Below are positions 1 to 56,537 of a stretch of 64,000 nt of DNA, one piece after another. The stretch is taken from contig NZ_QYUL01000004.1 of assembly GCF_003590795.1 (NCBI RefSeq), positions 1 to 64,000 of the forward strand. Reading direction: 5' to 3'. The DNA comes from Azospirillum cavernae. Its GTDB lineage: Bacteria > Pseudomonadota > Alphaproteobacteria > Azospirillales > Azospirillaceae. Each line of letters opens with the position of its first letter. Within the stretch, counting starts at the first letter, position 1. The position numbers and the translations under genes are program-made. Below the pieces are notes generated by a model. The model worked only from the letters and a program-made list of their open reading frames with translations. It was not told the DNA's origin and did not search any database.

Positions 1-2492
1 GCTGGATCCGGCGGCGGCGGCGGGCCTCGACCCCGTGCTCGCCGCCTTCGGCGCCGCGCGCGACCCGGCCGACGTGCCGACGGAGGCCCTGCTGCTCCAG
101 CCGGGAGAGGTCCGCCGCTTCGACCATCCCCAGCCGGTGGTCGGCCATCGCGTCGCCTGGGCGGTGGTCGAGGGTGACGAGGTTCCCCATCTGCTGACGA
201 CGCGCGCTCCTGGCATAGGGTGGCGGCGAACCGCAGCGTTCGCGGCCTGTCCACCGCCGAGATTCTCGCCCGCCACGGCTGGGGGCCGCTCGACGCGGTG
301 TGCGCCGACGCGCTGCCGTGGCTTGCCGCCGAGATGGGCCTCGGCGCGTTGGACGCCGCGAGCGCATCGGGTTGCGCGGGACCGGGACCGCGCTGCGGTG
401 GACGGGGCGGTGCGCGACGCCGCCGGGCTGCTGAGCGGGCTTTCCACCGTCGAGACCGTGGTTCCGGATGAAGCCGCCGCCGCCGCGCTGCACGGGTGGC
501 CGAGACCTCGGCATTGCGCTGCGCCCGGTGACGGACGCGGAGGGGGACGGCGATCTGCTGGCGGTGGCGCAGCGTCATGCCCGCGCCAGGGCTTCCGCTG
601 CCGCGTCGTCACCCTGCCGGACGGCTGTGGCGGCGCGATCCGCCATCCTTCGTCGGATGGCGGGCCGACACGCGGCGCCCTGCGCGTGCTGCGCCGTGGT
701 CCCGGTCGGTTCGAGGCGGTGGAGGCCGATGGCCGCCGTCATGCGGTGACGGCGCCGTACGCCGCTGGCCTCGCCCGCGACGGCATCGCGCTCTACCGTC
801 CGCTGCCCGCCCGCCCGCTGTCGCCGCGCGACATCCTGACCGCCGCCTTCACCGGGTCGGGGAGGGACGTCGGCGTCGCCGTTCTGTTGACCGTGACCAT
901 GGTCCTGCTCGGCCTGCTGACCCCGGTCGCCACCGGGATTCTGGTCAACGAGGCGGTGCCGTTCGCCGAGACCCTGGGCATCGTCCACATGGCGCTGGGG
1001 CTTGCCGCCATCGCGGTGGGCGGGGCGATGTTCGCCCTGGTCCGCTCCCTCCTGCTGTTGCGGTTCGAGGGGCGGGCCGACCCAGCTTCAGGCCGCCATC
1101 TGGGACCGGCTGCTGCGGCTGCCGCGACCTTCTTCCGCCGCTTCCACACCGGCGACCTGCTGATGCGGGCGCTGGCCCCGACCCAGCTTCGCCGGGTGGT
1201 GGCCGACACGCTGCTGTCCGCCGGTCTCCGGCGTGTTCTCGCTGGTCAATTTCGCGCTGATGCTGACCTACGACGCCCGGCTGGCGGTCCGCATTGGGTG
1301 GCGCTGGTCGCCACCCTGCTGCTGACCGCGACCGGCCTGGTCCAGCTTCGCTACGAGCGGCGCTCGGTCGAGCGGTCGCGGAACCTCGTCGGCGCTGCTC
1401 GACCTGCTGACCGCGCTGCCGACCATCCGGGTGAACGGGGCGGGACCGGCTGTTCGCCGCTGGCTGCACCTGTCTCCGCCCAGCGGCGGGAGGGGTATCG
1501 GGTCGGGCTGGCCGGGCCGCGTTCGCGGTGCTGAACGCGCTGGCGCCGCTGCTGGCGACGCTGGTGTTCTTCTCATCATCGCTCGGCGGCCAAGCCGGTT
1601 GCGGTCGGCGACTTCGTCGCCTTCAACGCCGCTTTCGGCAGTTCCTCGGCTCCGCTTCCAGGTGGTGACGGCGCTGACCGCCTCGCTCGACCGGCGCCGA
1701 TCCTCAAGCGCATGCGGCCGATCCTGGACGCGACGCGGAGACCCGACGACAGCCGGAGGTGCCCGCTCCAGGGGCGGTCGCGGTGACTGGCTCACCTTCC
1801 GCTACGGCGACGGCCCGCCGTGCTGAACGATGTCAGCCTGACGGCGGATCCCGGATCCTTCGTCGCGGTGGTCGGCCCTCGGGATCGGCAAATCGACCCT
1901 GTTCCGCCTGCTGCTGGGGTTCGAGACGCCGGAGCGGGAACTGTGTCGTTCGACGGGCAGTCGCTGGCCGACGTCGATCCCGCCTCGGTCCGCCGCAACT
2001 CGGCGTGGTGCTCCAGCGCGGCGCGCTGCTGCCCGGCAGCATCCTGAGAACATCCTCGGCTCCGCCCCTCGGATTGACGACGCGTGGGAGGCCGCCCGGA
2101 TGGCCGGCTGGAGGAGGATTCCGGGCGATGCCGATGGCATGCACACGCTGCTGTCGGATGGGGCGGCAACCCTGTCGGGCGCCAGCGCCAGCGGCTGATG
2201 ATCGCCCGCGCCATCGTCCGCCATCCGCGCGTCCTGCTGCTGGACGAGGCGACCAGCGCGCTCGACAACCGCACCCAGCGATCGTCGCCGACAGCCTGGC
2301 CCGGCTGAACGCCACGCGGATCGTCATCGCCCACCGGCTCAGCACGTGGTCCAGGCTGACCGGATCTGCGTGATGGAACGCGGTCGCATCGTGCAGTCCG
2401 GATCCTACCGCGACCTGATGGACCAGGACGGTCCGTTCCGTGCCCTGGCAAGCCGCCAATTGCTGGAGGACAACGGGCCTGACGTTCTTTGA
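1..2492 (+). pseudogene. NHLM-type peptide-export ABC transporter, permease/ATPase (frameshifted, 5' end outside window)
   Basis: Pieces of one long protein appear one after another in all three plus frames. An N-terminal region (PTEALLLQPGEVRRFDH, about 80-130) is followed by a transmembrane domain (LLGLLTPVATGILVNEAVP near 905-960, then a FEGRAD segment and a helix-rich stretch to about 1600). The ATPase follows: a Walker A region at about 1867-1900 (GIGKST readable across a frame change), [15 protein letters not shown] (about 2231-2275) and an H-loop segment (IVIAHRLS, about 2320-2345). The order matches the second ABC component of NHLM bacteriocin/leader-peptide export systems, known to export ribosomally made peptides across the inner membrane. 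The reading frame changes many times at single-base losses, so as written it is not translatable. The last frame ends at the TGA at 2490-2492. It could be true decay or poor sequence; codon bias is still coding-like throughout. Confidence 0.75.
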
Positions 2493-9971: not shown

Positions 9972-12900
9972 TCAGATGGCGATAAACCACGCGCTTGACA
10001 CGGCAGCGGGCTGGATGCCGACCAAGGTGAGGGTGTCGGTCCCGCCATAAGCGATCAACGCGTCGCCGTTGGCGTTGACGCCCACCGTGTAGGTCTGGCC
10101 GACCGCCAGCCCGATCCTGTCCCCCTGGGACGCGTCGAAGTCGGTGATCTGGTCCTGCCCGTCCCCCAGAGTGAAGGCGAACAGATCGGCTCCGCTGCCG
10201 CCGGTGAGGACATCATTGCCCAGACCACCCAGCAACGTGTCGTTTCCGGCGTCGCCGATCAGCGTGTCGTTGCCGACATTCCCCGCCAGCCAATTGTCCA
10301 GCCCGTTGCCGAGACCATTGGCATTGCTGGTTCCCAGGAACGCCAACCGCTCCACGTTGTCGCCAAGCGTGAAGGCCGACAGGGTGGTGCGCACCGCGTC
10401 GATTCCGGCGTTGACGGCTTCGACCACCGCGTCGCCGACACTGTCCACCACATAGACGTCGTCGCCGAACCCACCCAACAGCGTGTCGGCGCCGATTCCG
10501 CCATCCAGCGTGTCCGCGTTTGCACCACCCGCAATGAGGTTGTCCAGCGCGTTGCCGGTCCCGGCGAAGGCCGCCGCGCCTGTGTAGGTCAGGGTCTCCA
10601 CCCCATCGGCCAGCGTGTAGCTGGTCAGGGCGGTCCGCACCTCGTCAACGCCCTCGCCAGACAGCTCGACCACTTGGTCGCCCGCGCCGCTGACGAAATA
10701 GAGGTCGTTGCCGAGGCCGCCGACCAGCAGGTTGCTCCCCGATCCGCCATCCAGGGTGTCGGCCCCGTTGCCGCCGTTGAGCGTGTCGTTGCCGATTCCG
10801 CCGGTCAGCCGGTTGTCGAGAGCGTTGCCGGTGCCGGTGAAGTCACCTGCGCCGGTGTAGATCAGGGTTTCGACGTTGGCGCCCAGCAGATAGCTCGACA
10901 GGCTGGCGCGCACCTCGTCGGAGCCTTGGCTGGCCAGTTCCGTCACCACGTCGCCCGCGTCGTCGATGATGTAGACGTCATTGCCGGAGCCGCCGATGAG
11001 CGTGTCGGCGCCCAGACCGCCATCCAGAAGATTGGCCCCAGCGTTGCCGGTCAGGCTGTTGTTCAGCTCATTGCCCGTGCCGTCGATGGACGCGGACCCG
11101 GTGAGCGTCAGCTTCTCAAGGTTGGCCGCCAGCGTGAACGAGACCGAAGCGTTGACGGCATCCGTGCCCTCACCGGCCAGTTCGGTCACGACATCGCCGA
11201 CGTTGTCGACGACATAGAGATCGTTGCCGAGGCCGCCGATCAGCGTGTCGGCTCCGCCGCCGCCGTTGAGCGTGTCGGCGCCCTCCAGGCCGCTCAGCAG
11301 ATTGGCCGCGCCATTGCCGGTCAGCAGGTTGTTCGCCGCGTTGCCGGTTCCGGCGATGGCGGCGGAGCCGGTCAGGGTCAGGTTTTCAAAATCGGCCAGC
11401 AGGGTGTGAGAGATCGAACTTTGCACCGTGTCGACGCCTTCGCCCGGCAGTTCGACCAGCACGTCGCCGATGTTGTCGACGACATACAGATCGTTGCCGA
11501 CGCCGCCGATCAGCGTGTCGGCGCCAGCCCCGCCATTCAGCGTGTCGTTGCCGTCCAGGCCGGTTAGAACATTGTCAGCGGAAGTCCCTGTCATGCTGTT
11601 GTTGAGCGCATTGCCGACGCCCTGAAGAGCGGCGCCGGTCAGCACGAGCTGTTCAACATTGGCGTCCAGCGTGCGATCCACAGAACTTCGCAGCGTGTCG
11701 ACGCCTTGACCCGCCAGTTCGATCACCACATCGCCAGCGTCATCCACGATGTAGGTGTCGTTGCCAGCGCCGCCGGTCAGCGTGTCCGCCCCGGCCCCAC
11801 CGGACAAGGTGTCCGCCCCGACGCCGCCGGTCAGCGCGTTGGCGCCCGCGTTGCCGACGCCGGAGAAATTGCCGCCGCCAGTGTAGACCAGGTTCTCAAG
11901 CCCGACGGCCAACGTGTGGCTGGGCAAGCTCACGCGCACCGTATCGACGCCGCCGCTGTCGAGGATGACGTCGCCGACCTCGCCGACGATATAGACGTCG
12001 TCACCGGCTCCGCCATCAAGCGTGTCGGCTCCGGCCCCACCGTCCAGGGTGTCCGCCCCGACGCCGCCGACGATCCGGTTGTCGAGCGCGTTGCCGACGC
12101 CGTAAAACGCCGCGCTTCCCGTATAGACCAGGACTTCCAAATTCGGGTCGCCAAGGGCGTAGGTCGAGGCGGTGGAGCGCACCTCGTCGTTGCCATCCGC
12201 CGCCTGCTCATAAATCTGATCGGTTGGGTCATCGACCAGATAGACATCGTCGCCGCTGCCGCCAACCAGAAAATCAATGCCGGTTCCCCCGTCGAGGGTG
12301 TCGTTGCCATCCTCGCCGTACAGCACGTCGTTGCCACCGGCGCCCGTGACGCTGTCGTTGCCGGCGCCCGCCCGGATGCGATCCAGGCCAGCGCCGCCCG
12401 CCAAGGTGTCGGCGGCCGCCGTTCCCGTCAACAGACTGTAGGCGGGCGGCAGGGTTCCGCCAGCCCAGACGCGGTGGGAGATTCCATAGGAATCACCATC
12501 CGGCGTCACCCAACTGGCGACAAACCCGCCATCGGCGCGGGCCGAAAGGCTGGGCTGTGTCTGGTCGCCCGACACGGCCTGCGCCAGCGAAAACTCACCG
12601 CCGATCTTGCCGCCGCTCGCATCAAAGCGCTGGGCCATGGCGCCAGCCCCGGATCCATCCTGGGTCCCCAACGTGGACCAGGCGACGACGAAGCCGCCGT
12701 CGCCCAAGCCAACAACCTTGGCCCCCGTCTGATCGCCGGAGGTTCCGGTGTTGACTTGGAATTCGGAGCCGTCCTTGGCGCCGTTGGCGTCATAGCGCTG
12801 CCCGTAGAGGCCGATCCCCGAACCATCCTGGCCGATGGAGTCCCAAACCACGACAAAGCCGCCATTCTTCAGCGCCGCGACGCTGGGCCAAGCCTGGTTG

Positions 12901-15143
12901 CTGGCGCTGGTCGGGGCGTAGCTGTTCACCTGAACGATGCCGCCAATCGCCTGTCCGGCGGCGTCATACCGTTGAAGAGCGACATCGGCGTCGGCCCGCC
13001 AGGTGCCTGTCGTGCTCCAGGCCACGACCAAGCTGCCATCGGACAGGGCGGCCACCGCCGGAGTTCGCTGCACGGTGTCGTCAACCGCATGCACGTCGAT
13101 GGCTGGACCGGCGATGACGCCAGAGGCGGTGAAGCGTTGCATGCGAACATCGGTTTCCGCGCCGTCCGGCTCAACGCTGGTCCACGCCACGACGAAACCG
13201 CCGTCGGCGAGCGCTGTGACCGCTGGCTGCGTCTGATCGTACAAGGCTCCCGCGCCGGTCGAGATTTGGAACTCCAGACCCAGCGGCGTGCCGTTGGCGT
13301 CATAGCGCTGGCCCGTGACGCCATAGCCGCTGCCATCGGCGCCCGCCGATTGCCACACCATGACGTAACCGCCATCATGCAGCGCCTGGACCTGGGGATA
13401 GAACTGGTCGGAGGAGTTGTAGGTGCTGACCCAGCCTTCGCCGGTGAGGGCGTTGCCCTGGCTGTCAAAGGTTCGGCGGATCAGCGTGTAACCGCTGCCG
13501 TCGCGTCCGTTGCCGTCGGCCCAGACGGCGACTTGGTTGCCGTTGGCGAGAACCGTTGTGGACGGATGAGTCTGATAGCCGGGGGTGTAGGCGTTGGTGC
13601 GCAGTTCGCTGCCAGCGGTCAGGCTGGGAAGTGACTGTTCGGTTTGGACGGCGCCGTCCTTCCACGCGCTCCAGTTGGTCCCGTCGGTCATGCGGATGAG
13701 AAAATCATTGTCACCCGCCGCGCTGCCGCCGACGAACCGCACCCGTTGCAAATCGCCGACCGCCACTGTGATGGGCTGTCCAGCCGCTTGCGCGACGCCA
13801 TCCACAGTGAAATAGCCCGAGCCAGCCGCGCGGTTGATGTCAACAAACTGGATCTGGGTGACGGCCTGCAATTCAGCGGTCACATAGGCGTTGCCTTGGA
13901 GATGGCCCTCCCGGAACAGCCCGGCGACGTCGATGCTTTGACCTTGACCAACCACGGGGTTCTGCGTGGAAAACACCGGGGCCTGCGTGCTGGGCGAGTA
14001 AACGCGTGTGTAGATTCCCCAGCCGGACCCGTCGTTGCTGGTCCACGACGCCACGAACCCGCCATCCGGGCGGGCGACGATGGCCCCTTCGGTCTGGTCG
14101 CCCGATGTCGTGGTGGAGACCACAAACTCACCGCCAACCGGATTGCCCTGGCTGTCGAAGCGGCGGGCCAAGGTCGCGGCGCCGGACCCGTCGGCCCCAG
14201 CCGAGGGGTAATGAACGACGAAACCGCCATCGGCGAGCGCCGCGACCGCCGAACTGTTTTGGTTGCCGTTGGTCCATGCGTTGACCGGAATCTCGCCGCT
14301 GAGCGGCGTGCCGGAGGCGTTGAAACGCCGGGCGTACACGCCCATCCCGCTGCCGTCCTGACCCGCTGAGATCCAGGTCACGACAAAGGAGCCATCGGTC
14401 AAAGTGGCGGTGGAGGGATAATACTGGTTCCCGCTCGTCGTGATGTTGACCTGGGCGGCGGCCCCTTTGGGCGCGCCGGACGAATCATAGGTCCGCATGA
14501 GGACGCTGGCGCCGCTGCCATCGCTTTGCGTCGACCATGTCACGGCAAAACCGCCATCGGCGAGCGTGGTGACGCCATGTCCCACGGACGACACGGAGGG
14601 GCCGCCTCCGACGAGAATTTCGCCGCCCACTTTGGCGCCGGTCCCGTCGAAACGTTGGGCGTGAAAGTCCGTGTTGGCGCCGTTCTGCTCAGACCATGCC
14701 AGGACGAAGCCGCCATTGGCCAGCTTGGTGGTGCGCGGGTAGATTTGCAGCGCTCCGGCCGGTTTCAGCGCGGTCTGAGGCCCGAAGGGGTTTCCGTTGG
14801 AATCGAAACGCTGGCTTTGAATGGAGTAGGTGGACGCCACGTCCTGCGTGCCGATGTCGTTCCAGAAGGTGGTGAATCCGCCATCGGCCAACGCCACAGT
14901 TGAGGCGTAATGTTGCAGCCCTGTGGTCGACGTGTTGATGTGAAACTCGCCGCTGACCGGAACGCCAGCGGTGTCGAAGCGCTGGCCATAGATCCCCCAG
15001 AGACCGGATCCCTCCTGGGTCGTGCTGGTCCATGTGACCAGATAGCCGCCCCCAACGAGCATGGTCACGTCGCTGTTGAACTGGTCGCTGGACGTGTAGG
15101 TGTTGGCGCGCCGTTCAACGGACGCGACGAGGGATGTTGTCAC
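9972..15143 (-). CDS. Large RTX/type I-secreted calcium-binding repeat protein
   Basis: About 1723 residues from GTG 15143 (GGGA about ten bases upstream). The longer frame to 15311 adds a low-complexity N-terminus without coding character, so I prefer the GTG. The first ~950 residues are at least fifteen imperfect repeats of about 50 residues built on DGGFVVTW...QDGSGxGVYGQRFD, with VNTxTxGDQ between them: a beta-propeller or beta-rich adhesin region. An interruption near residue 400-500 reads [21 protein letters not shown]. From about residue 960 come RTX nonapeptides (GGAGNDxLxGGxGADTL) alternating with a 90-residue unit GNDxYxVDxxGDxVxExxxxGxDxVxxS...ENLxLTG. The C-terminus is a typical type I secretion end. 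No transporter genes (ABC/MFP) are adjacent. Likely secreted and Ca2+-dependent, perhaps in adhesion or biofilm; the exact role is unknown. Confidence 0.85.
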
Positions 15144-15718
15144 GGTTGTGTTCCCGAAATGAAAGGGGGGTGGAGGGGGCTTAGAGCGACGCCACGCGAA
15201 TGGAAGGGCCGTGCGAAGCGCTCTTTTTGAGCGTGAAGCGGTCGGAAGAACATCAAGATCAGCCCATATGGCGCCATCATCGCCCTTCTTCAGCGCTGGC
15301 GTGAGACGCATTCATACGAATGATAATTCATAGGCTATGAAAATATTATAAAGGTTTCAACTGAGATAAATGACGCAACCATGACCTCTCTGCTCGCGCA
15401 TGCTGTACTTGGTGGGGTTGGCGTAGCGAGGCGATGGCCCGGTTGTCAGACGATGGGAGGGGTGTTCAACGCAGATGAAATTGCCTTGTATGGCAAGATC
15501 AGATCGACGCTGACAGCAGCCGACTGACCACTTCCGCTGGCAAGGTGTCCGCATTTTTGCGAATCGCTCGATTCGCCAGAAAGGAACAAGGAGGGAACGG
15601 GGGGCCACATGTCAAAAACGTGCCAATCACTTGCCGCGTTCATGCATTGTTCCACACGCCTGCGCGCATGCTCCCCGAGGGGGAAGAACTTCAATGCATT
15701 GATAAACAACGGGAAAAT
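15144..15718. other. Gene-free region upstream of the RTX gene, up to the att site
   Basis: The leader and promoter of the RTX gene should lie in 15144-15400, which includes an AT-rich patch (15310-15360: TGATAATTCATAGGCTATGAAAATATTATAAAGG). The rest, to 15718, holds only short overlapping ORFs without consistent coding signal. It is host DNA just outside the prophage boundary. Confidence 0.45.
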
Positions 15719-15766
15719 TGGCGGACCCGAATGGATTCGAACCATCGGCCTCTGCCTTCGGAGGGC
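15719..15766 (-). repeat. Prophage attachment site: 3' half of tRNA-Arg(CCG)
   Basis: Reading the minus strand, the sequence gives an anticodon loop CTCCGAA (15763-15757, anticodon CCG), stem strand GGCAG, variable loop AGGCC, T-stem/loop GATGG-TTCGAAT-CCATT, acceptor strand CGGGTCC, discriminator G and encoded CCA (15721-15719). The 5' half of a tRNA is absent: upstream bases do not pair with the acceptor strand or form a D-arm. The anticodon stem is already mismatched (CAGCC where CTGCC is expected). A duplicated 3' tRNA half is the usual scar of integrase-mediated insertion. The side with host DNA is the left, so the prophage lies to the right and the intact tRNA should sit at its far end. 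Confidence 0.8.
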
Positions 15767-17763: not shown

Positions 17764-19047
17764 ATGACCTTGAACGATGCCTTCGAGACGCTGGAGACGG
17801 TCGCCGCCACCAGCTCGCGCACCGAAAAGCAGACGCTCCTGGCCGTGGCCCTGAAGGACCCGATCTTCCGCGCGGTCTGCATCTACGCCTACGATCCGTT
17901 CATCACCTTCGGCATCGTCCCGTCGCTGGAGCGCCAGGGGCAATCCACCTGGGGCGAGCCGGACACCACGCAAATCTTCTCCTACCTGGATCGCCTCGCC
18001 CGTCGCGAGTACACCGGCAAGACGGCGGAACGCTGCGTCGAGGAGATGCTGCACCAACTCCCGACCGGCGCCGGGCAGCTCCTGGTCCGCATCCTGAACA
18101 AGGATCTTCGGGCCGGCTTCACCGCCACCACCTTGAACAAGGTGGTGAAACGGCTGGTGCCCGAATATGAGCCGATGGCGGCCCACCCTTTCGAGGCCAA
18201 GCGCATCAAGGGCTGGCCGGTCGCGGGCGAACCGAAGCTGGACGGCCTGCGACTCCAGGTCTGGGTGGATTATGAGAACGGCGAGGCCGAGGCCCGCAGC
18301 CGCAACGGCCTTCCGATGCCGGCCCTCAAGCCGCTGGCCGAGGCGTTCCTGGCGCTGTCCTGCCCCTACGCCAAGGTCGTGTTCGACGGCGAGGTGGCGA
18401 CCGGCGCGTTCAACGACAGCGTGGGCCGGACCCGCCGCAAATCCACCCCGGTGGACGCCGCCTCCATGTTCGTCTTCGATCTGCTGACGCAGGAGGAGTT
18501 CACCTCCGGCAGCCTGCGCCCGTATCTCACCCGCCGCTCCACCCTGGAGGATGTCCTGGGCGAGCCGGTCGATGGCGCCCTGGCCCTCCGGGTGATGCCG
18601 CAGCGCCTGCTGCACTCGGTCGCCGAAGTCATGGCCTATTACGAGGAGGTCCGGGCCATGACCGTGGGCCAGTTCCTCGGCCTGTCCTGCGACAAGCCGA
18701 TGGAGGGCGTCATCGTCAAGACGCTGACCGGCGGCTATGAGAACAAGCGGTCGCACCATTGGCTGAAGGTGAAGGCCGAGGAGACCGAAGACCTCCGCGT
18801 CATGGGCGCCTATGAGGGCGAACCGGGCACCAAATACGCCGGCAAACTCGGCGGCGTGATCGTGGACCGCAACGGGGTCGAGGTCCGGGTCGGCGGCGGC
18901 TTCTCCGACGCGCTGCGGGACGAGCCGCTGGGCGGCTTCATCGGTCGCCTGATCGAGGTCGAGTATCACGAGGTGACGCCGGACGGCAGCCTTCGCCACC
19001 CGCGCTTCGTGCGTTTCCGCGACGACAAGGACAAGGGGGTCGCGTGA
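17764..19047 (+). CDS. ATP-dependent DNA ligase
   Basis: 427 residues. The adenylation motif is PKLDGLR with the nucleophile lysine at residue 158. Later motifs are seen as VFDGEV (motif III region), MEGVIVKTL (motif IV-like) and HHWLKVKAE (motif V, WLKVK). The C-terminal OB-fold region follows (KLGGVIVDRNGVEVRVGGGF...IEVEYHEVTPDGSLRHPRFVRFR). The N-terminal 150 residues form a helical DNA-binding domain as in phage ligases. It seals nicks using ATP, unlike the host NAD+-dependent LigA. It lies five bases after the DUF4406-like gene, and its stop overlaps the tandem GapR start. Confidence 0.9.
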   Translation: MTLNDAFETLETVAATSSRTEKQTLLAVALKDPIFRAVCIYAYDPFITFGIVPSLERQGQSTWGEPDTTQIFSYLDRLARREYTGKTAERCVEEMLHQLPTGAGQLLVRILNKDLRAGFTATTLNKVVKRLVPEYEPMAAHPFEAKRIKGWPVAGEPKLDGLRLQVWVDYENGEAEARSRNGLPMPALKPLAEAFLALSCPYAKVVFDGEVATGAFNDSVGRTRRKSTPVDAASMFVFDLLTQEEFTSGSLRPYLTRRSTLEDVLGEPVDGALALRVMPQRLLHSVAEVMAYYEEVRAMTVGQFLGLSCDKPMEGVIVKTLTGGYENKRSHHWLKVKAEETEDLRVMGAYEGEPGTKYAGKLGGVIVDRNGVEVRVGGGFSDALRDEPLGGFIGRLIEVEYHEVTPDGSLRHPRFVRFRDDKDKGVA

Positions 19048-19600: not shown

Positions 19601-19637
19601 AGCCCTGGTGCGGAAACTGCGCCAGGGTTTTCTCTTT
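19601..19637 (+). terminator. Rho-independent terminator of the nucleotide/ligase operon
   Basis: CCCTGG (19603-19608) pairs with CCAGGG (19622-19627), extended by GC/GC inside, followed by TTTTCTCTTT at 19628-19637. It lies 34 bases after the tandem GapR stop and before the TPR-glycosyltransferase gene, which therefore probably has its own promoter. Confidence 0.75.
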
Positions 19638-19679
19638 GAAACGTATAACCTCAGCGATCCACAACACCCAGAGGTAGGC

Positions 19680-21299
19680 ATGGCAGAGGCGGCTGTAAAA
19701 CCAAACCTGAGAGAAGCCGTCTCTCTCTTTGAGGCAGGGTGCCTCATGGAAGCTGAACGTCTCTGCAAATTGTTGCTAAAAGACAATTCAGTAAACGTTG
19801 GAGCAAACCATTTATTGGGTGTTTCGCTGTGCAGCCGTGGACAATACAAGGAAGGCGCTGATTTTCTTGAGAATGTCGTTGACCTGCAACCTCTGAATTT
19901 TAATGCGCTTCGCAGCTTGGGGGACTCGTATCAATGTCAGCATCGGCATGAGGACGCCGTGCGCGTCTACAGACGGTGCCTCTCGGATAAGGGCAGTCTT
20001 CTCTCAACTTACATCAAAATATCCATCTGTTTGAATGAGCTGGGCCTGCATGATGAGGCAATCAGAGCATGCAAAGCGGCGATTGCCCTTAGCCCTTCGG
20101 CTTTTGAAGCTTACTTTGGTCTTGGGAGTTTGCTTCAGGATCAATACGAAACAGACGGCGCCTTGATCGCCAATGGCCGCTCGGCCGCGCTGGCCCCAGA
20201 CAGGCCAGAACCAATAACGAATATAGGGCTTCTTCTCAAAGAAAGCGGGAGCATTGATGCAGCCATTGCTGTTCATCGCCACGCCATCTCGATTTTCCCA
20301 AACTACGCCTACGCCCATATCAATTTGGCCGCAGGACTTCTCGCCAGTGGGCAGTGGGATGAGGGTTGGAACGAGTACGAGTGGCGGTGGCAGGCTCAGG
20401 ACCTCGGATTCAGGCGCCCCACGTCGGACAAGCCGGAATGGACCGGGCAGGATCTCACCGGCCAGACGCTGCTGATTTGCGAGGAACAGGGCTTCGGCGA
20501 CACCCTCCAATTCATCCGTCTTGCCGCGCTGGTCCGACCGCTCTGCGCGAGGGTGGTGGTCCAATGCCGCGCGCCGCTCGCCCGGATCATCGCCAGCGCG
20601 GCGGGGGTGGACGAGGTGGTGACGGAGTTTCCCGACCGCTCCGGCTATGATTGCTGGGTGTCCCTGATGTCCTTGATGGCCCGTCTGGGCGTCACCCTGG
20701 ACAGCGTCCCGGCGACCACGCCCTATCTGTTCACCCCCGCCGACGCCCGGCGGTCGTGGGCCTCGGTCGTTCCGACCTCCGGGACGCTGAAAGTTGGTCT
20801 GGTGTGGGCGGGCGACCCCAAGCTGGGCTGCGCGGCGGCCCGCAAGATGGATTCGCGGCGCAGCATGGCCTTGAGCCAGTTCGCCCCGCTGGCCCAGATT
20901 CCCGATGTGACCTGGGTCAGCCTGCAAAAGGGGCCTGCGTCCAAGCAGGTGGAGAGCGCTCCGGGGGGCCTTGCCCTCATCGACCCGATGGACGGGGTGC
21001 GGGATTACGCGGACACCGCCGCCATCATCGAACAGCTCGACCTCGTGATCGGGGTGGACACCTCGGTCATCCATCTGGCGGGCGCCCTGGGCAAGCCGGT
21101 GTGGGCGCTGTCCCGCTTTGACGGCTGCTGGCGTTGGCTGTTGGACCGCGACGACAGCCCTTGGTATCCGACGCTGCGCCTCTTCCGCCAGGAACGGCCG
21201 GGCGACTGGGGGCCGGTGGTGGAGCGGGTAAAGCGAGAATTGACGCTGGTGGCTGAAGGAGCGGGCGACACCGTCTTGTGCCGCTCTGAAGCAGAGTAA
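19680..21299 (+). CDS. TPR protein with GT-B glycosyltransferase-like C-terminal domain
   Basis: 539 residues from ATG 19680, with AGAGG five bases upstream. Residues about 5-210 are TPR units (LREAVSLFEAGCLMEAERLC, VGANHLLGVSLCSRGQYKEG, FNALRSLGDSYQCQHRHEDAVRVYRR, YAYAHINLAAGLLASGQWDEGWNEYEWRW). Residues about 240-530 form a family-9-like domain: LLICEEQGFGDTLQFIRLAAL, LKVGLVWAGDPK, WVSLQKGP and LDLVIGVDTSVIHLAGALGKPVW. Such TPR-GT proteins occur in phage and bacterial loci and may add sugars to surface or virion components. The 5' part (to about 20340) is clearly lower in GC than the 3' part, suggesting a recombination joint. It converges on the TcmP gene and probably alters host surface or tail proteins; inferred only. 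Confidence 0.75.
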   Translation: MAEAAVKPNLREAVSLFEAGCLMEAERLCKLLLKDNSVNVGANHLLGVSLCSRGQYKEGADFLENVVDLQPLNFNALRSLGDSYQCQHRHEDAVRVYRRCLSDKGSLLSTYIKISICLNELGLHDEAIRACKAAIALSPSAFEAYFGLGSLLQDQYETDGALIANGRSAALAPDRPEPITNIGLLLKESGSIDAAIAVHRHAISIFPNYAYAHINLAAGLLASGQWDEGWNEYEWRWQAQDLGFRRPTSDKPEWTGQDLTGQTLLICEEQGFGDTLQFIRLAALVRPLCARVVVQCRAPLARIIASAAGVDEVVTEFPDRSGYDCWVSLMSLMARLGVTLDSVPATTPYLFTPADARRSWASVVPTSGTLKVGLVWAGDPKLGCAAARKMDSRRSMALSQFAPLAQIPDVTWVSLQKGPASKQVESAPGGLALIDPMDGVRDYADTAAIIEQLDLVIGVDTSVIHLAGALGKPVWALSRFDGCWRWLLDRDDSPWYPTLRLFRQERPGDWGPVVERVKRELTLVAEGAGDTVLCRSEAE

Positions 21300-21366
21300 T
21301 ATATAGAGGAAAATCTGCCGCATAGTCGTCACTGTAATAATAGCCATTACCCGAAGATTGGGCTGT

Positions 21367-21387
21367 GCCTGTCTCGTTAAGACAGGC
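21367..21387. terminator. Hairpin between convergent genes
   Basis: GCCTGTCT (21367-21374) and AGACAGGC (21380-21387) are perfect arms around five bases. They lie between the TPR-glycosyltransferase stop (21299) and the TcmP stop (21494), where a bidirectional terminator is expected. There is no long T-run on either strand. Confidence 0.5.
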
Positions 21388-21493
21388 TCCCAACATCTAT
21401 GTGCAGAATTTTCGTACTCACCACATGAAATATCACCATTTGTCAGAAACATAAGTTATAAATATACAATTGATGATATAAATTATATTATGT

Positions 21494-22876
21494 CTATAGA
21501 AGAAATGAGAAAAGAGATGGTTGTCTAGGGCGCCGAATCTCATCATCCCATCCAAAGTCATAAGCACGTTCACGCACTATCTCGCCAATGACATTTCCAG
21601 ATTTATCGTGTTTTTTACCGACAATAACTACCTCTCCCGCATCCCGCAATTCTGTGAGTTGGCTATCAACCAACTTACCAACCACCGGTGTATCATTAGC
21701 GCGGGCCGCGAACAGCGAGCGCTTGGTGACGGCGACCCCATCTTTCCACCCAGCTTGAAGAAGGGGTGGAATCTGCTCCAATAGATGTTTCTTTGATCGA
21801 GCGGCAGCATCATCGTTGAAAAGGTAATCCATCATGCCCTGCCGAACGTCCACGTTGGGGTCGAAGCCAAGAGCGTCGAATCCTGAGCCGCCAAAGTGCT
21901 CCATCGTATTGTTTGTTGCCCAGAAGACGTTTCCCATCTCTTCACGGGCCTGATGGTGCTTTGAAAGATGAATTAGCCAATAATCCCGATGAGACTCCGG
22001 CGGATGAACAAAAAAAGGCGTGTAATATGCCGCGCCAGTACAGCTAAGTATATGACGATACACTGTGTTCTGGATTGCTCTCTTCCAACCCTTTTGACCG
22101 TATTCGTTCTTAATATCTAGAAGTGCGCGAACGTCTTCGCGTTTATAGTCGATTGCAGCGAGCGCGCTAAGACTAGATGTCCTGTCATGAAGCAAATTAA
22201 TTAGAGAGTCCACCATAAATGTCAGTATAACCTCAGGATTAGCCAGCTCTCCCATGATTTTCCGAACCGTTAGAAGTTTTACATCACTCCATCCATACTG
22301 ATCTAGAAAAAATAAAGAGTGATGCGCCCTCCCTTTTTTCTTAATAGTTGATATAACGTCCGGTATGGCCTCTTCAAAAGTTGACTGTATTAACCGAATT
22401 TTCGTTCCAATTAAGGAGCTGTATCCCCGCTTGACGAGTTGATCTGTCAGAAATGCAACATGGTTTCTGTTTTCATCGATAAAAACAAAATCAACATCAA
22501 GGACAAAGTCACTTCGTCGCGCGATGAGGAGTTCACGAGCTTGGTCAATAGCGGTTAGAAGCCGCAGCGGGGAACCATCGATGACCTTCTCACCCATCGA
22601 ATACAAGCCACCGCCACAGAACCCATCAACGATGGTCATTCTAAGCTGAGATTGGACATGCCGTTTTGTAAGAGTTGCAACGTACCGATCAACATACGTG
22701 CTATAGATGTCGTGTTTAGCGGCGCTATGCTCCCCAAGTTCGGGCAGCGCCATTCCGGGTCCCCAATGATACCCCAGTTTTTCAGGCTTACCCAGCGCTA
22801 ACTTGGGTTTGGCAAGCTCATACAACCCAGGTATGGTCAAGCCAAGCTGATCGCTATCGACCTTCTTCCTCGCCAT
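21494..22876 (-). CDS. tcmP: Three-Cys-motif partner protein TcmP (SAM methyltransferase-like)
   Basis: 460 residues. The N-terminal half carries a methyltransferase-like nucleotide site: TIVDGFCGGGLYSMGE, then GSPLRLLTAI, an acidic strand end FVFIDENRNHVAFL and a FLDQYGWSDV motif in place of the usual D-P-(F/Y)-G. TcmP proteins are named for their gene being next to three-Cys-motif (DUF5131) genes, as here. Their biochemical role is unknown; they are often found in mobile DNA. GC content is far below the phage genes on both sides. It is the third gene of the minus-strand cassette, 232 bases after the unknown middle gene, so it may have its own promoter in 22877-23108. Confidence 0.8.
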   Translation of the reverse strand: MARKKVDSDQLGLTIPGLYELAKPKLALGKPEKLGYHWGPGMALPELGEHSAAKHDIYSTYVDRYVATLTKRHVQSQLRMTIVDGFCGGGLYSMGEKVIDGSPLRLLTAIDQARELLIARRSDFVLDVDFVFIDENRNHVAFLTDQLVKRGYSSLIGTKIRLIQSTFEEAIPDVISTIKKKGRAHHSLFFLDQYGWSDVKLLTVRKIMGELANPEVILTFMVDSLINLLHDRTSSLSALAAIDYKREDVRALLDIKNEYGQKGWKRAIQNTVYRHILSCTGAAYYTPFFVHPPESHRDYWLIHLSKHHQAREEMGNVFWATNNTMEHFGGSGFDALGFDPNVDVRQGMMDYLFNDDAAARSKKHLLEQIPPLLQAGWKDGVAVTKRSLFAARANDTPVVGKLVDSQLTELRDAGEVVIVGKKHDKSGNVIGEIVRERAYDFGWDDEIRRPRQPSLFSFLL

Positions 22877-23108
22877 GGCAGATCTTTCAGATGGAACGAA
22901 GCCTCAAGTGAAGTTCCACCATGACTTGAAACGTGAGCTGTTGCCTAGTGCAATCGATTGAAAACTGAACTGCCTTTTGTTGGAGGCTGTGTCTTTCCGA
23001 ACTGCGTCGTCAGCGGTCGTTTCTCTTTGATGAATTGCGCATCTGCCCTATCAGCCAAGCAATCATATGTTTAGAATTTGAACATAATAGACTTTGCCAC
23101 TACGTCCC

Positions 23109-23651
23109 TTAGATTGCGATGATCTGCTCTATTGCCTTAATGAGACGCTCACGTGAGGCTATCGCCCGGTCAATTGTTGATGCCTCCGCAAAGAACCAGA
23201 GCCAGATAGATTGGACTTCGACTTCCTCAATCGCAAGAAAGACCGGTGCAAGTTGGAGGTTTACTTCCTACCTATCAGCATTAGCCGCTACCTTTAGGCC
23301 ATACTCTATTTCTTTTGCTACAGATTGGAGAAATTTTAATTCATAATCTTCAGCGTTCCCGGCAACAATTTGAACATATCCGCCTGCTATTCGGCGTGCC
23401 TCAATGCGTGCCCTGGGTACATCATGCTGCCCAAGATCACATCCGAGTGAGACTAGGCGCGCATTCGGTATGGCAAGTTTAGTGAGTAAGGCGGCCAGCG
23501 CTCGGCTTTCCTGTGCCTCCGGTATCTCCGCGACGCGGTCGGGATGCCCTCGTGTATCGATGAATCCATAATTTCGCCGAATTTCATCAAAGAGCGGTGG
23601 GTAAGGAATCGTATTCCCATTTCCAGTGCTATACTTGATGCGCGCACTCAC
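23109..23651 (-). pseudogene. Unknown protein between DUF5131 and TcmP, interrupted by an in-frame amber codon
   Basis: GTG 23651 is preceded by AGAGGATTAGGA and lies 17 bases after the DUF5131 stop; an ATG at 23696 is an alternative that overlaps that gene. The first 127 residues (SARIKYSTGNGNTIPYPPLFDEIRRNYGFIDTRG..., ending LKVAANADR) stop at a TAG at 23270-23268. The same frame then stays open for 53 more codons (EVNLQLAPVFLAIEEVEVQSIWLWFF...IEQIIAI), with good coding character, to a TAA at 23111-23109. The downstream part has no start codon of its own. One nonsense mutation in a protein of about 180 residues explains this; readthrough is possible. I do not recognise the family. Confidence 0.6.
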
Positions 23652-23667
23652 AATTCCTAATCCTCTA

Positions 23668-24489
23668 TCAAGCAGTGATAATCCGTGGAAGACCATCCCA
23701 TGTCATGCCATCAAGTATACGACCAGCAGCTTTCTTTCCGATTCGCAGCATCGTTGTTCCGTCATCGGCTGCTGCGCTTCGCGCTTTAGCCAAATTGATC
23801 CCCTGACCAGGCGCCCAATCACCCCATTGTTTGAAGTGAAAAGGGATATCAGCCGTCATACACTCATTGAGCAATGATCGAAACCAAGAAGGGCTTGACG
23901 GACGTGCCTTGGGTCCACTTTCTCCACCTGTGATAACCCAATCAATCGAGTCGGTCCAACCTTTCAGGCTAAGTGGACCAAGCAACGGTTCAGCCGAAAT
24001 GAAACGCACGGCAGCAGGAATATCAGCGAGCGCAGGCAATCGCCGGTCAGCCCACTCCTGATTTTCGGTTGTTGTTCCAAGCCAAACATTCTTTGGAAAC
24101 TCGTCACGCCAGGGTGTACAGGACCGTACACGATCAGGACGCTTCGTTAAAAGGAGCCAATCCAACGCGGGAGTCTCAGTAATTAGCTGCCACAACCGTT
24201 CACGCTCCGGGTCGAGATCGACACGGTCCTCAAATACATCTGCCATAGAGGCGCAGAACACACGGGCACGCTGGCCCGTTGCTAACGCTGTTCTGTTCCA
24301 CTGAAGCGGCTCGGCCCAATGTCGCTCGCCAAAAAAGCGTCGATCCGCATGAAGACCCCAAACCGGCTCCCCCAGTCTTTTAGCCCAACTCTCCGCATAG
24401 CAAAATTTACATGCCGGTGACATTTTTACGCAACCCCACCAGGGGTTAAACGTATGAGTCGTCCACTCAATCTTCGAGTTCTTTGCCAA
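23668..24489 (-). CDS. Three-Cys-motif protein, DUF5131 (phage Gp37/Gp68 family)
   Basis: 273 residues, start ATG 24489. The N-terminus KIEWTTHTFNPWWGC carries the family's cysteine cluster C20-x6-C27-x2-C30 (SPACKFCYAE). Later family blocks are visible: VFCASMADVFEDRVD, WLLLTKRPDRV, NVWLGTTTENQ, VRFISAEPLLGPL, WVITGGESG and FHFKQWGDW. The layout recalls radical-SAM/TIM-barrel proteins, with a cysteine spacing different from the classic CxxxCxxC; an Fe-S role is plausible but not proven. It is the first gene of a cassette with TcmP. The island is AT-rich relative to the phage, which marks it as cargo. Confidence 0.85.
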   Translation of the reverse strand: MAKNSKIEWTTHTFNPWWGCVKMSPACKFCYAESWAKRLGEPVWGLHADRRFFGERHWAEPLQWNRTALATGQRARVFCASMADVFEDRVDLDPERERLWQLITETPALDWLLLTKRPDRVRSCTPWRDEFPKNVWLGTTTENQEWADRRLPALADIPAAVRFISAEPLLGPLSLKGWTDSIDWVITGGESGPKARPSSPSWFRSLLNECMTADIPFHFKQWGDWAPGQGINLAKARSAAADDGTTMLRIGKKAAGRILDGMTWDGLPRIITA

Positions 24490-25060
24490 ACGCCGCTCCT
24501 GCCTCGCTGGCCCTCATCTTAATCCGCCGAGCGGCCTTGTGAATAAAAATGCTCCATACCGTGAGTGGGCATGAAGCGGTTCTTTCGCGTCGGGATCGTA
24601 CCCGCATTTGGCTCGGCACATCACGTTTTTTGCTGAATAGCATAAATTACGCTATAGAACAATAAGAGAACAAGCATGCGATTACCAGCAGACTCAGTGG
24701 GGGTTTTCACCTTGTGAAGGCTGGCGTTGGACTTCTTTTGACCACCACTCTGCTGAAACTCAATACGGCTGAACAGCATCAAAACGGTGAAGCGCAGCGT
24801 AAATCAGGCATATATCTCGCGCCTTCTTGAGTAAATTTTTTATAATATATATGGAAAATCAGGGTTTTTGTTAATTTGTTCAGAATATTATTCTATACTT
24901 TTAGTATATTAACTCTATGATTATGGGAATGACGGTTGTTTTATTTCAAATCCCAAGATTTTATGGCGAACTCCTGCTCGATAATGGGAATAGTTCTATC
25001 TGATTCAACCCCGCAGGCGCTCAACCTGGGCCAGGGCTTCGTGGGCCTGCGCAGGCACAA
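24490..25060. other. AT-rich gap between DUF5131 gene and holin
   Basis: Composition falls sharply here (for instance 24830-24920). It contains the operator-like palindrome at 24637-24655 and presumably the promoter of the cassette at 23109-24489. No ORF has a convincing coding signal. It marks the right edge of the inserted low-GC island, next to the high-GC late operon. Confidence 0.5.
24637..24655. promoter_or_regulatory. Operator-like palindrome upstream of the DUF5131 gene
   Basis: Two nine-base arms, ATAGCATAA and TTACGCTAT, surround one central A. They are complementary except at one position (half-site ATAGC[A/G]TAA). The site is about 150 bases upstream of the DUF5131 start, in AT-rich DNA, as expected for a repressor-controlled cargo promoter. 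Confidence 0.45.
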
Positions 25061-25615
25061 TCATCCCCGCGCCTTCGTCATGGCCGCCGACATCGCGGCG
25101 GTCTTCCTCTCGGAGCCATGCGAGGAGCCGAAGAAGTAGCTGACCACCTGATCGGCCTTCGCCGACACATAGCCCACCACCGTGCCGACCAGCACGCCCT
25201 GCTCCCCGGTCAGACCGACCCGGCCCGACAGGACGTAGCCGACCGTGGCGAAGAAGCCGACGATCACGATGCCGGCCAGGATGTTGATCGCCGTGCTGCC
25301 GACCGCCTTCTCGCGGTCGCGCGCCGAGGCGCGGTCGTCGGCGGCGATCCGTTCCAGGTCCACGTCGAGCTTGGCAAGCGTGGCCTGGAAGTCCTGCTCG
25401 GCCTGCTTCAGCTTCAGCAGGGTCTCCGGGTCCGCCTTCTGGACGGCGGCCACGATCTCCTTGGCCGGGGTCGTGGCGTCGAGGCCGAGCGCGCCCGTGA
25501 TGGCGCTGACCGCCGTGCCGGCGAGCGGGCCGCCGAGAGCGGTGGCGATGGTCGGGGCCACGGTGGATATCAGGCTGGTCACGCCGGTCCAGATGTCGTC
25601 GAAGATATTCGCCAT
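25061..25615 (-). CDS. Holin (three-helix phage holin type)
   Basis: 184 residues, start ATG 25615 overlapping the endolysin stop. There is a hydrophobic N-terminal region (LISTVAPTIATALGGPLAGTAVSAITGALGL), a charged helical linker (about 60-105, LKQAEQDFQATLAKLDVDLERIAADDRASARDREK), then two membrane helices INILAGIVIVGFFATVGYVL and GVLVGTVVGYVSAKADQVVSYFFG. This matches a holin family common in alphaproteobacterial prophages. It would form the inner-membrane lesion that ends infection. It is the last gene of the late operon. Confidence 0.75.
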   Translation of the reverse strand: MANIFDDIWTGVTSLISTVAPTIATALGGPLAGTAVSAITGALGLDATTPAKEIVAAVQKADPETLLKLKQAEQDFQATLAKLDVDLERIAADDRASARDREKAVGSTAINILAGIVIVGFFATVGYVLSGRVGLTGEQGVLVGTVVGYVSAKADQVVSYFFGSSHGSERKTAAMSAAMTKARG

Positions 25616-26211
25616 CAGCGGAGTCCCCCTTCCCAGAGGCAGGCTTCTTTCTCACGTCGGTCGCGCAGACCCTCGACGGTGGGCCACAGGCGCTTCATCT
25701 TGCGGAACTGGTCGGGCACCTCGGTCAACGTGCCAGCCCGGATCAGGTCGCGGATCGCGGCCATCTCGACCCGGCGGTCCCCCTTGACGGAGGCGCCCCG
25801 GTTGTAGACGAGGCTGACCAGGGTGCCGAAGCACAGCGCCGGCAACGTCTCGCAGCCGGGGAAGGCGCCGACCGTCTGGTCCACGTAGCGCGGCAACGTG
25901 GCAGTGCGGAAGCTCTCGCCCGCAGCGGCCCACGGAATGGCGATGTCCCGCAAGGTCGGCAGCGCGGCCTGGGCCTTGGCGCCCGTCAGCCCGGTCACGG
26001 TCTTCAACCGGCTGCGGATGTCCTTGGGCAGCATCGGCCAGTCACGATCCAGCCCCTCGCCGGTCTCGTAGCCGAGGTCGAACCCGATCCCGATGGTGAC
26101 GCCGCTGTCGCCCCCCGGCCAAGTTGGGCGGGCGTATTTCTTCTCGTAGACGGCTTGGCTCGTGACCTCGAAAAGGATGATGAGGTCCAGCGCTTCCTGG
26201 CAGACGTTCAT
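25615..26211 (-). CDS. Endolysin, lysozyme-like
   Basis: 198 residues from ATG 26211. The segment CQEALDLIILFEVTSQAVYEKKY...GGDSGVTIGIGFDLGY resembles T4 lysozyme/pesticin-type muramidases: E15 as likely catalytic acid and a TIGIGFDLG strand after it. LCFGTLVSLVYNRGASVKGDRR resembles the later lysozyme helix with the NRG motif. It would cleave the glycan strands of peptidoglycan. There is no signal peptide, so export should depend on the holin encoded directly downstream (ATGA overlap at 25615). Confidence 0.75.
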   Translation of the reverse strand: MNVCQEALDLIILFEVTSQAVYEKKYARPTWPGGDSGVTIGIGFDLGYETGEGLDRDWPMLPKDIRSRLKTVTGLTGAKAQAALPTLRDIAIPWAAAGESFRTATLPRYVDQTVGAFPGCETLPALCFGTLVSLVYNRGASVKGDRRVEMAAIRDLIRAGTLTEVPDQFRKMKRLWPTVEGLRDRREKEACLWEGGLR

Positions 26212-26687
26212 GGCGAAACCCCCTGCGGAATGAACGGCGGGTGAATGTGGGAGAGCACGCATTCCGCGCAAGCGTTGGCCTTCACCTGGGTTTGAACCTG
26301 CTCCCAGACGGTGGCCCATTCCTCCATGGCTTGACGGGTCATGTGCAGCTCGACCTGGATCGTGCCCAGCTCCTTCCGGGCTGACATTTCGGCCTCCTGC
26401 TGCCGCCGGAGTTCGGCGTACAGGTCCTGAATCTCTTTCTGGAGCTGGGAAATCGTGGTGGCTTGGTCGGTGATCTGCCGTTTCAGGGCGGCGTAAGCCT
26501 TGCTGTGGACGGCGGTGAGGGTCACATCCTCCTCCGTCCGCTGCTTGCGGCTGCGCAGATAGAGACAACCGGCAACCCCGGCGCCGCCGAGCGCGGCTTT
26601 CACCCACCACGGGGCCGCCGTATCGGCGGCGAGGCCGATAAGATTTTGCAGAACATCATCCACGGCTTCATCCCCCGCCCACGGCAC
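26208..26687 (-). CDS. Inner-membrane spanin-like (Rz-like) protein
   Basis: 159 residues; GTG 26687 is the listed start, with another in-frame GTG at 26663. One membrane segment (WWVKAALGGAGVAGCLYL) near the N-terminus is followed by basic residues and a long coiled coil (about 65-130, LKRQITDQATTISQLQKEIQDLYAELRRQQEAE). It then has a Cys-containing tail. This layout and its position directly before the endolysin and holin fit an i-spanin. A nested lipoprotein (Rz1) could not be identified with confidence in the other frames. Confidence 0.6.
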   Translation of the reverse strand: MPWAGDEAVDDVLQNLIGLAADTAAPWWVKAALGGAGVAGCLYLRSRKQRTEEDVTLTAVHSKAYAALKRQITDQATTISQLQKEIQDLYAELRRQQEAEMSARKELGTIQVELHMTRQAMEEWATVWEQVQTQVKANACAECVLSHIHPPFIPQGVSP

Positions 26688-54992: not shown

Positions 54993-56537
54993 TTAAGAAA
55001 CCACACCTTTTTGGTTATGGGAAATCACGTCATTGGCTATTTCACCGAACATCTTTATGCGGCTATACGGCACGAATCTCGGATTGTCACTAACGACCGG
55101 GAAGCGTGACACCACCATGTGTTGGACCTCGTTCAGCGCCAGCTTCTCCTTCAGTAGATGTTCTCGGTTCTTTTCCTTTAACAAGGCGCTCTCATAAGCA
55201 CGCACTAGCCTATAATTGAATCTAGCAAAGCGCGAAGCGTCCGCCTCGAGATAATCGATATCAGTAAAATTGTTTTTGCATTGAATGTTCCAAATTACGC
55301 CATCCCGAACAGTTACAACATCAAACTCACGACGATTGATGCGCCGTACATCTTGCACAACGAAGCCCTGTCGGCTTATCTCCTGGCGAACCGCTTCTTC
55401 AAATATGAAGCCTGTGCGGATCTGATAACGCTTTTGACGATCAAGGCACCGAGCGCGCCAGTAGTAGATAAAACGACTCAGAAGTGTAACGGTTGATCGA
55501 TAGACGCCATTGATTAAAACAAAAGGGGAATAAGTAGACAGACAATCTAGATAGGTCACTCCCGATGAGAGAAATGCAGATTTCAAGTCTGGTGGCGCTC
55601 TAAATTCATCAAATAGCGCTGAAATATCTTCTGGACTTACTACGATCCAAAAGTCCTTTTCCACAAAATTGATGGATAAACGACGCACTATTCCTGCCGC
55701 AGATGGAAATTCTGTCTTCGCCAATTCGAATTCTGAATAGGCTATTTCGATATTGAGAATATCATTTCGGAGTTCAGCAGCTGAGAAAATTCTGTCTGGA
55801 CTTAACGTTTCCCTCATCGCCCATTGTGTAACATCGTCCGTGATTGGCATATTGATGATCGGTGCTCGCTCGGGCTCAAGAAAAAATGGATCTAGCATTG
55901 CCAATTCAGCAGATTCTTGCGCCGGCAGACCAAGTTTTGTCCGAGACAGCTTCACCTTCAGCGCGTTCTGTGCGCCTTTCAATTGAACTCCGTTGAGCTC
56001 AATCATCGGCAGGAAGATAAGGAGCGCATCGTAAGGTATTACAGCCTTATTTCCGCAACATGCCTTCGGAATCATATGAAGTAGAGCTATGAAATGGCGC
56101 CGTCGCGATTGAAGATAGATTATCATAGATCCGACTGTTCTAAAATAAGAAGCGATCTCAGAGTGTCCGTGTGCATCAAAACCTGTCGCTATACCTACGC
56201 CATACCTTATAAGATTGGTAAAGCGGTTTGCGAAATTTCTGCTGAATTTTTTAATAAATAATTGGCGCACAGCCTGAAACTGCGGTGTCAATTCGACGTG
56301 CAGGCTGAGCGGGAGAGAGTATATGTATTCTTCAAATTCGTCATCGTCCCAATCGACGTTTATTAAGTTAATGCACTCTTCGATAGCGCGAAGAGTATCA
56401 AGCCAAGCATATGTTGCAGAAATCGGCTCGTACGGAGCGAGGCAATCATGAACCATCTGGCGCTCTTGAAGCGCAATGCGTTCAACGAGCAAGTGCTCGG
56501 GAGACGATGCTGTCAAAATGCGTGATTGCTCGGTCAT
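54993..56537 (-). CDS. PD-(D/E)XK nuclease-like protein, likely cargo
   Basis: 514 residues, low GC, no strong neighbour on its strand. The nuclease core is near the C-terminus: an acidic helix GFIFEEAVRQEI (E380/E381), then RREFDVVTV (D406) and WNIQCKNN (Q419-x-K421), i.e. the E...D...(Q)xK pattern of restriction-endonuclease-like folds, with Q instead of E before x-K. The large N-terminal part (1-370) is helical with no recognised domain. Single-gene position between the replication genes and tail fibres, its own orientation and its AT-rich composition all mark it as a moron. It may be a restriction-type or abortive defence protein, but no family match is claimed. Confidence 0.7.
   Translation of the reverse strand: MTEQSRILTASSPEHLLVERIALQERQMVHDCLAPYEPISATYAWLDTLRAIEECINLINVDWDDDEFEEYIYSLPLSLHVELTPQFQAVRQLFIKKFSRNFANRFTNLIRYGVGIATGFDAHGHSEIASYFRTVGSMIIYLQSRRRHFIALLHMIPKACCGNKAVIPYDALLIFLPMIELNGVQLKGAQNALKVKLSRTKLGLPAQESAELAMLDPFFLEPERAPIINMPITDDVTQWAMRETLSPDRIFSAAELRNDILNIEIAYSEFELAKTEFPSAAGIVRRLSINFVEKDFWIVVSPEDISALFDEFRAPPDLKSAFLSSGVTYLDCLSTYSPFVLINGVYRSTVTLLSRFIYYWRARCLDRQKRYQIRTGFIFEEAVRQEISRQGFVVQDVRRINRREFDVVTVRDGVIWNIQCKNNFTDIDYLEADASRFARFNYRLVRAYESALLKEKNREHLLKEKLALNEVQHMVVSRFPVVSDNPRFVPYSRIKMFGEIANDVISHNQKGVVS

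Follow-up and report, generated by a model that had tools for sequence, protein, structure and literature searches.

What might a DUF5131 protein and a TcmP protein, encoded together on mobile DNA, do for their carrier? The question is raised by a minus-strand cassette (21494-24489) in a prophage of Azospirillum cavernae, located in the window, by which we mean the whole 64,000-nucleotide stretch analysed. We suggest that the cassette is a mobile two-enzyme module for nucleic acid modification, carried as cargo by a temperate phage and most likely benefiting the lysogen or carrier against competing phage, a tentative reading to which we give a probability of about 0.42. The DUF5131-TcmP pair is not new, as each family and the link between them have been catalogued before, and the pair is listed as a defence candidate. 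The locus is thus a new member of a known pair; it also has a third gene, rare in general and broken in this copy. What is new is the relation of TcmP to the methyltransferase RlmJ, the model of DUF5131 as a radical S-adenosylmethionine (SAM) enzyme and the family of the third partner, and these enzyme assignments are a useful advance.

The TcmP protein is a full-length member of its NCBIfam family (TIGR04474, residues 49-320, 212.3 bits against a cut-off of 53) and the only TcmP match in its own genome. Its C-terminal part (residues 351-422) resembles the winged-helix GMT-wHTH family below the cut-off (E 0.059). Comparison of a profile of 44 TcmP proteins with one of eight RlmJ proteins (hhalign) aligned the N-terminal domain motif by motif at 95.6% (E 1.1e-8), whereas the same RlmJ profile gave 0.1% against DUF5131 and 0.3% against the third family. 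At the profile level, then, TcmP is a distant relative of RlmJ, the 23S rRNA N6-methyladenosine (m6A2030) methyltransferase (PF04378), and retains its catalytic Lys and Asp as well as the GSP element. The predicted catalytic residues Lys54 and Asp192 are invariant in 44 of 44 TcmP proteins and align with Lys18 and Asp164 of RlmJ, which are reported to be essential (PMC3814359). Of 27 distinct rows from two genome samples that matched the TcmP model under its cut-off, eight were scanned, and all eight were RlmJ. The two families nevertheless differ: motif IV of the window's TcmP is DQYG (the second position is Q in 24 and P in 20 of the 44 proteins) rather than the DPPY of RlmJ, TcmP has an extra C-terminal part, and it is mobile whereas RlmJ is a housekeeping enzyme. 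The window's TcmP has no PF04378 match at E <= 1, and the profile alignment begins at RlmJ residue 9, after the Y4/H6 tail.

The DUF5131 protein covers its Pfam family end to end (PF07505, positions 1-243 of 243, E 2.6e-83, 279.7 bits against a cut-off of 28.9) and matches phrog_2045 (E 7.8e-96). Neither the TIGR04474 nor the PF07505 description consulted names a function; this analysis adds the relation to RlmJ and a fold like that of spore photoproduct lyase. The cysteine cluster singled out in the original prediction (Cys20, Cys27 and Cys30) is as described, and all three residues are invariant in 49 of 49 aligned proteins. Radical-SAM clusters usually have the spacing CX3CX2C. DUF5131 has the three cysteines expected for a superfamily 4Fe-4S cluster, though with the spacing CX6CX2C, and its structural model has the partial TIM barrel of a radical-SAM fold. 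Judged by title or known identity, the 42 best structure-comparison rows all belong to radical-SAM enzymes, and the nearest solved fold is spore photoproduct lyase; Foldseek alone returned no match to the model at E <= 1e-3. We thus model DUF5131 as a radical-SAM enzyme. Membership of the spore photoproduct lyase family was considered and not assigned, since the cluster is not CX3CX2C, the spacing in the only two lyase-like proteins compared, both themselves under their family cut-off; no sequence relation to these two was found (0.4%). Identity to spore photoproduct lyase is 11%. Residues 74-221 also resemble radical SAM mobile pair protein A (TIGR04471, E 5.6e-11), by name a member of a mobile radical-SAM pair, but with 42 bits against a cut-off of 355, a match that omits the cysteine cluster, and a partner that is there, by name, another radical-SAM protein. 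The same genome has a second DUF5131 gene (C2:305705-306748, plus strand; L002) with a longer frame of 373 amino acids.

The original prediction held that the two families recur as neighbours, and they do so beyond chance. Counting as near any TcmP match over the cut-off within 1.5 kb of DUF5131, 16 of 17 TcmP matches were near in a class sample of 289 genomes, the remaining one lying at a contig edge, and 21 of 21 in a phylum sample of 299 genomes, partly the same ones. Pooled, the two samples hold 35 distinct matches in 32 genomes, of which 34 are near, compared with one of 28 rows under the cut-off. TcmP lay on the same strand downstream in 21 pairs and upstream in six, was convergent in seven and was divergent in none. 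In a genus sample of 45 species the distribution was sporadic, with TcmP over the cut-off in seven, adjacent to DUF5131 in five of these and at contig edges in two, and among 16 viral-contig loci found with DUF5131 ten hold TcmP, the window's twin (a contig in IMG/VR) included. Both components of the PADLOC candidates PDC-M30 and PDC-M41 are present and adjacent in the window (PDC-M30A 3e-24, PDC-M30B 2e-55, PDC-M41A 1.3e-8, PDC-M41B 4.4e-58), as judged by the component models. The window differs from these candidates in the third gene between the two, the matched stretches being 954 bp apart with the broken gene in between. At L025, L026, L093 and L109 and in genomes G582 and G609, a single DUF5131 gene is flanked or followed by two distinct TcmP genes, a hint that the same radical-SAM enzyme can pair with alternative methyltransferases. 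In Rhizobium indigoferae (L110:7812-9197) tcmP is split over two frames with no DUF5131 detected alongside, apparently a decaying copy.

Three minus-strand reading frames lie where they had been described, and DUF5131 and TcmP are apparently intact, but the middle one, taken to encode a protein of its own, is a gene broken by an in-frame TAG (Table 1). From its relatives and the sequence, its start is likely the GTG at 23651, after a GAGGA ribosome site, within a mechanical open reading frame of 23268-23696. The 5' piece matches phrog_18578 (E 2.8e-6) and is 43% identical over 122 residues to a Methylobacterium oryzae protein, and the remainder aligns with residues 129-181 of that protein at 32% identity (tblastn E 3.6e-7 against the loci collected for comparison). 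Relatives are 189 residues long in M. oryzae, 192 in a Mannheimia phage and 189-274 (longest start) in ten proteins from two scans, four of which are near-identical Mannheimia-type proteins. A model of an intact relative (predicted local distance difference test score, pLDDT, 84) places the final helix and two of the long strands in the portion lost from the window's gene, and normal folding of the truncated protein is therefore unlikely.

The suggestion that a third small protein accompanies the pair holds, if rarely. Apart from the window and its twin in IMG/VR, the third gene occurs in seven lineages and adjoins DUF5131 in five of them (L092, L093, L094, L095 and L097, the last with its 97% relative L023), TcmP being present in all of these except L092. 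Neither DUF5131 nor TcmP occurs in L096 or the Mannheimia type within the DNA examined. L094 has the window's order (DUF5131, third gene and TcmP on one strand), its DUF5131 being 37% identical to ours, and TcmP is convergent in the three-gene loci of L097 and M. oryzae. Most DUF5131-TcmP pairs of the genome samples are spaced too closely to accommodate a third gene, and a search of 82 genomes of the family with the third-gene PHROG model gave no copy besides the window's. By eye only, a 247-residue protein near the L093 locus (1369-2109, minus strand; starting MQHRYVGDAGDFAKYSLL) resembles the RlmJ N terminus, and the L092 contig (1-1772), from a Devosia metagenome-assembled genome, has HD-domain-like and nucleotidyltransferase-like frames immediately before its DUF5131 and third gene.

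We propose that TcmP would bind nucleic acid and that its RlmJ-like site (Lys54, Asp192) would methylate a base nitrogen with SAM as the donor, with DUF5131 carrying out the second step, a radical reaction on that base or one next to it. An accessory role, either targeting or regulatory, may fall to the third protein. Given that its gene is broken in this prophage, either the pair would work without it or the locus would be decaying. The most likely benefit to lysogen or carrier would be that nucleic acid is marked or spoiled and a competing phage fails. Joint nucleic acid chemistry of the pair, already raised in the original prediction, is a good guess in view of the RlmJ-like methyltransferase and the radical-SAM fold. 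If TcmP is an RlmJ-type methyltransferase partnering a radical-SAM enzyme, function becomes directly testable through the named catalytic residues and a nucleoside assay. Small natural test cases exist in the Gordonia phages Jablanski, Pytheas and Fairfaxidum and in the intact three-gene locus of the M. oryzae plasmid.

The proposal that the cassette is prophage cargo is confirmed. It lies within an integrated phage of about 75.2 kb, delimited by a pair of 50-bp repeats, the far one (on contig C4) overlapping a tRNA-Arg(ccg) gene (C4:90875-90951, minus strand), and containing ligase, tail, tape-measure, terminase and primase genes. The cassette has a guanine-plus-cytosine (GC) content of 0.491 compared with 0.622 for the prophage part of the window (15717-64000), in keeping with the AT-rich island described between the lysis genes and the left operon, although it is one of two such stretches of its size in this part, the other lying at about 54-57 kb. 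DNA ligase and other plus-strand genes occupy the flank opposite the lysis side. The leader upstream of DUF5131 may hold the cassette's own promoter; a promoter-like match lies at 24949-24920 (minus strand), in a scan of 21200-25200 that gave seven matches against 4.6 expected by chance. The IMG/VR contig (74.8 kb), which may be the same isolate, has an identical cassette, with 0 mismatches over 3,301 bp.

Table 1. Positions in the window of the cassette genes and flanking features
Feature	Position	Strand	Remarks
Left attachment site	15717-15766		50 bp identical to contig C4:90873-90922
TcmP gene	21494-22876	-	460 aa, apparently intact
Third gene, 3' remainder	23109-23267	-	52 codons, same frame after TAG; ends TAA 23109-23111
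Third gene, 5' piece (phrog_18578-like)	23268-23651	-	127 codons, then in-frame TAG 23268-23270
DUF5131 gene	23668-24489	-	TTG start, 273 aa, apparently intact
Cys20, Cys27, Cys30 codons	24432-24430, 24411-24409, 24402-24400	-	in DUF5131 gene
AT-rich leader	24490-25060		GC 0.454, between lysis-side gene and DUF5131
phrog_1544 protein gene	25061-25615	-	flanking, late/lysis side
Lysozyme-like gene	25615-26610	-	flanking, late/lysis side; match below Pfam cut-off

DUF5131 and TcmP occur together on phages, plasmids and genomic islands and are offered as candidates by defence-finding software, and these neighbourhoods only suggest a defence role, which is plausible. A further pointer is the match to PADLOC's PDC candidates, which arise from guilt-by-embedding; of two papers naming PDC-M30, one, where it treats PDC systems, calls them putative and experimentally unvalidated, and the other only lists PDC-M30. 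Twelve TcmP-bearing plasmid loci were selected from 62 records and read with flanks of 8-9 kb; DUF5131 is near TcmP in 11 and named defence genes occur in six: CBASS at L027, L111 and L114, DUF262 at L109, AbiE at L115, and a methyltransferase, helicase and GIY-YIG set at L025. The remaining loci (L023, L026, L028, L110, L112 and L113) lack named defence genes by our reading; L026 carries imuA with Y-family and error-prone polymerases, L110 a Fic gene as well as the split tcmP, and L112 an upstream helicase with ZorD/DpdE-like matches that was left out of the count. Only one of eight plasmid loci with DUF5131 alone has a defence gene (AbiGi, L116), HicAB, Lar and lone methyltransferases being left out of the count. 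The integrase and the immunity repressor of Gordonia phage Jablanski enclose a convergent pair, DUF5131 as gene 42 and TcmP (E 2.7e-28) as gene 43; this position is common for prophage-expressed cargo. Both families are also present in Pytheas and Fairfaxidum. For Sinorhizobium meliloti, a table gives a TcmP gene (SMa2243) in the row next to that of hna (SMa2245), a defence gene, both about two-fold up with NolR; the table's shading for putative operons is not visible in the text (PMC12445080). A TcmP-domain protein also has a row in a BCG table (PMC7387457).

Several observations weigh against the favoured reading. The difference in defence neighbours between the plasmid groups is not significant (Fisher one-sided 0.106, two-sided 0.158), and the labels were assigned after the loci had been seen. 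DUF5131 often stands alone, with TcmP near in 32 of 75 genome-sample matches and absent nearby in 43, and against 152 phage records with DUF5131 two TcmP queries found one and four, queries that could miss a divergent TcmP. The break in the third gene speaks against a complete three-part system at this locus, and the departure of motif IV from DPPY means that N6-adenine methylation is not implied. For S. meliloti prophages with four TcmP genes, the PADLOC results given in PMC12429752 are PDC-M32 and PDC-S45, not M30. Among the papers listed by full-text searches of a literature without subscription papers and preprints, none gave an activity or phenotype for DUF5131 or TcmP, and the word DUF5131 occurs in no paper searched.

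The nearest solved fold to the DUF5131 model invites a different account, in which the pair is a DNA-repair accessory of phage or plasmid: DUF5131 would directly reverse or process a base lesion by radical chemistry, in the manner of spore photoproduct lyase, and TcmP would modify or recognize the same site, so that mobile DNA survives entry or damage. The company kept by some copies is consistent with this. A Burkholderia glumae plasmid copy has imuA and genes for Y-family and error-prone polymerases nearby, a Methylobacter copy shares its element with a uracil-DNA glycosylase, RecT, SSB, DnaN or thyX genes lie within 8 kb in five of eight plasmid loci with DUF5131 but without TcmP, and in an Erythrobacter phage DUF5131 follows ERF-family and SSB genes (PMC5463345). 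However, no sequence relation of DUF5131 to the two lyase-like proteins was found, its cluster spacing differs from theirs, a methyltransferase has no obvious part in direct reversal, and several TcmP pairs lie near CBASS, AbiE or DUF262 genes instead. We think repair rather unlikely.

The base-modifying chemistry that is likely for the pair could instead serve the phage itself, by modifying its own DNA (or RNA) and so evading restriction or other host defence. DNA methyltransferase genes near DUF5131 on a Streptomyces and a Hymenobacter plasmid, and DUF5131 preceding a Lar restriction-alleviation gene, are in keeping with this. Yet the pair also occurs on plasmids without visible phage genes alongside, TcmP turned up in only a few of the DUF5131-bearing phage records, and the window's pair sits at the end of the late side, outside the early operon, all of which makes self-protection unlikely. 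It is likewise improbable that the cassette is a decaying passenger, a former three-gene module no longer working in this prophage. The in-frame TAG and the identical IMG/VR sequence speak for it, but DUF5131 and TcmP are full length with their invariant residues, and in the genome samples the two genes mostly lie too close together for another to fit between. Of these readings we favour a modifying module that benefits lysogen or carrier against competing phage.

Other genes of the region are recorded here for their own sake. Between the left attachment site and the cassette lie a phage ATP-dependent DNA ligase gene (17764-19044, plus strand) and a gene for a TPR protein with a glycosyltransferase-9 match (19608-21296, plus strand). 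The second AT-rich island holds a 514-residue frame (54993-56537, minus strand; GC at third codon positions 0.45) with no match in Pfam (E <= 0.01), PHROGs (E <= 0.001) or PADLOC (E <= 0.01). Just beyond the left prophage end, the window encodes a protein of 1779 residues (9975-15311, minus strand) with 13 stretches of RTX calcium-binding repeats.
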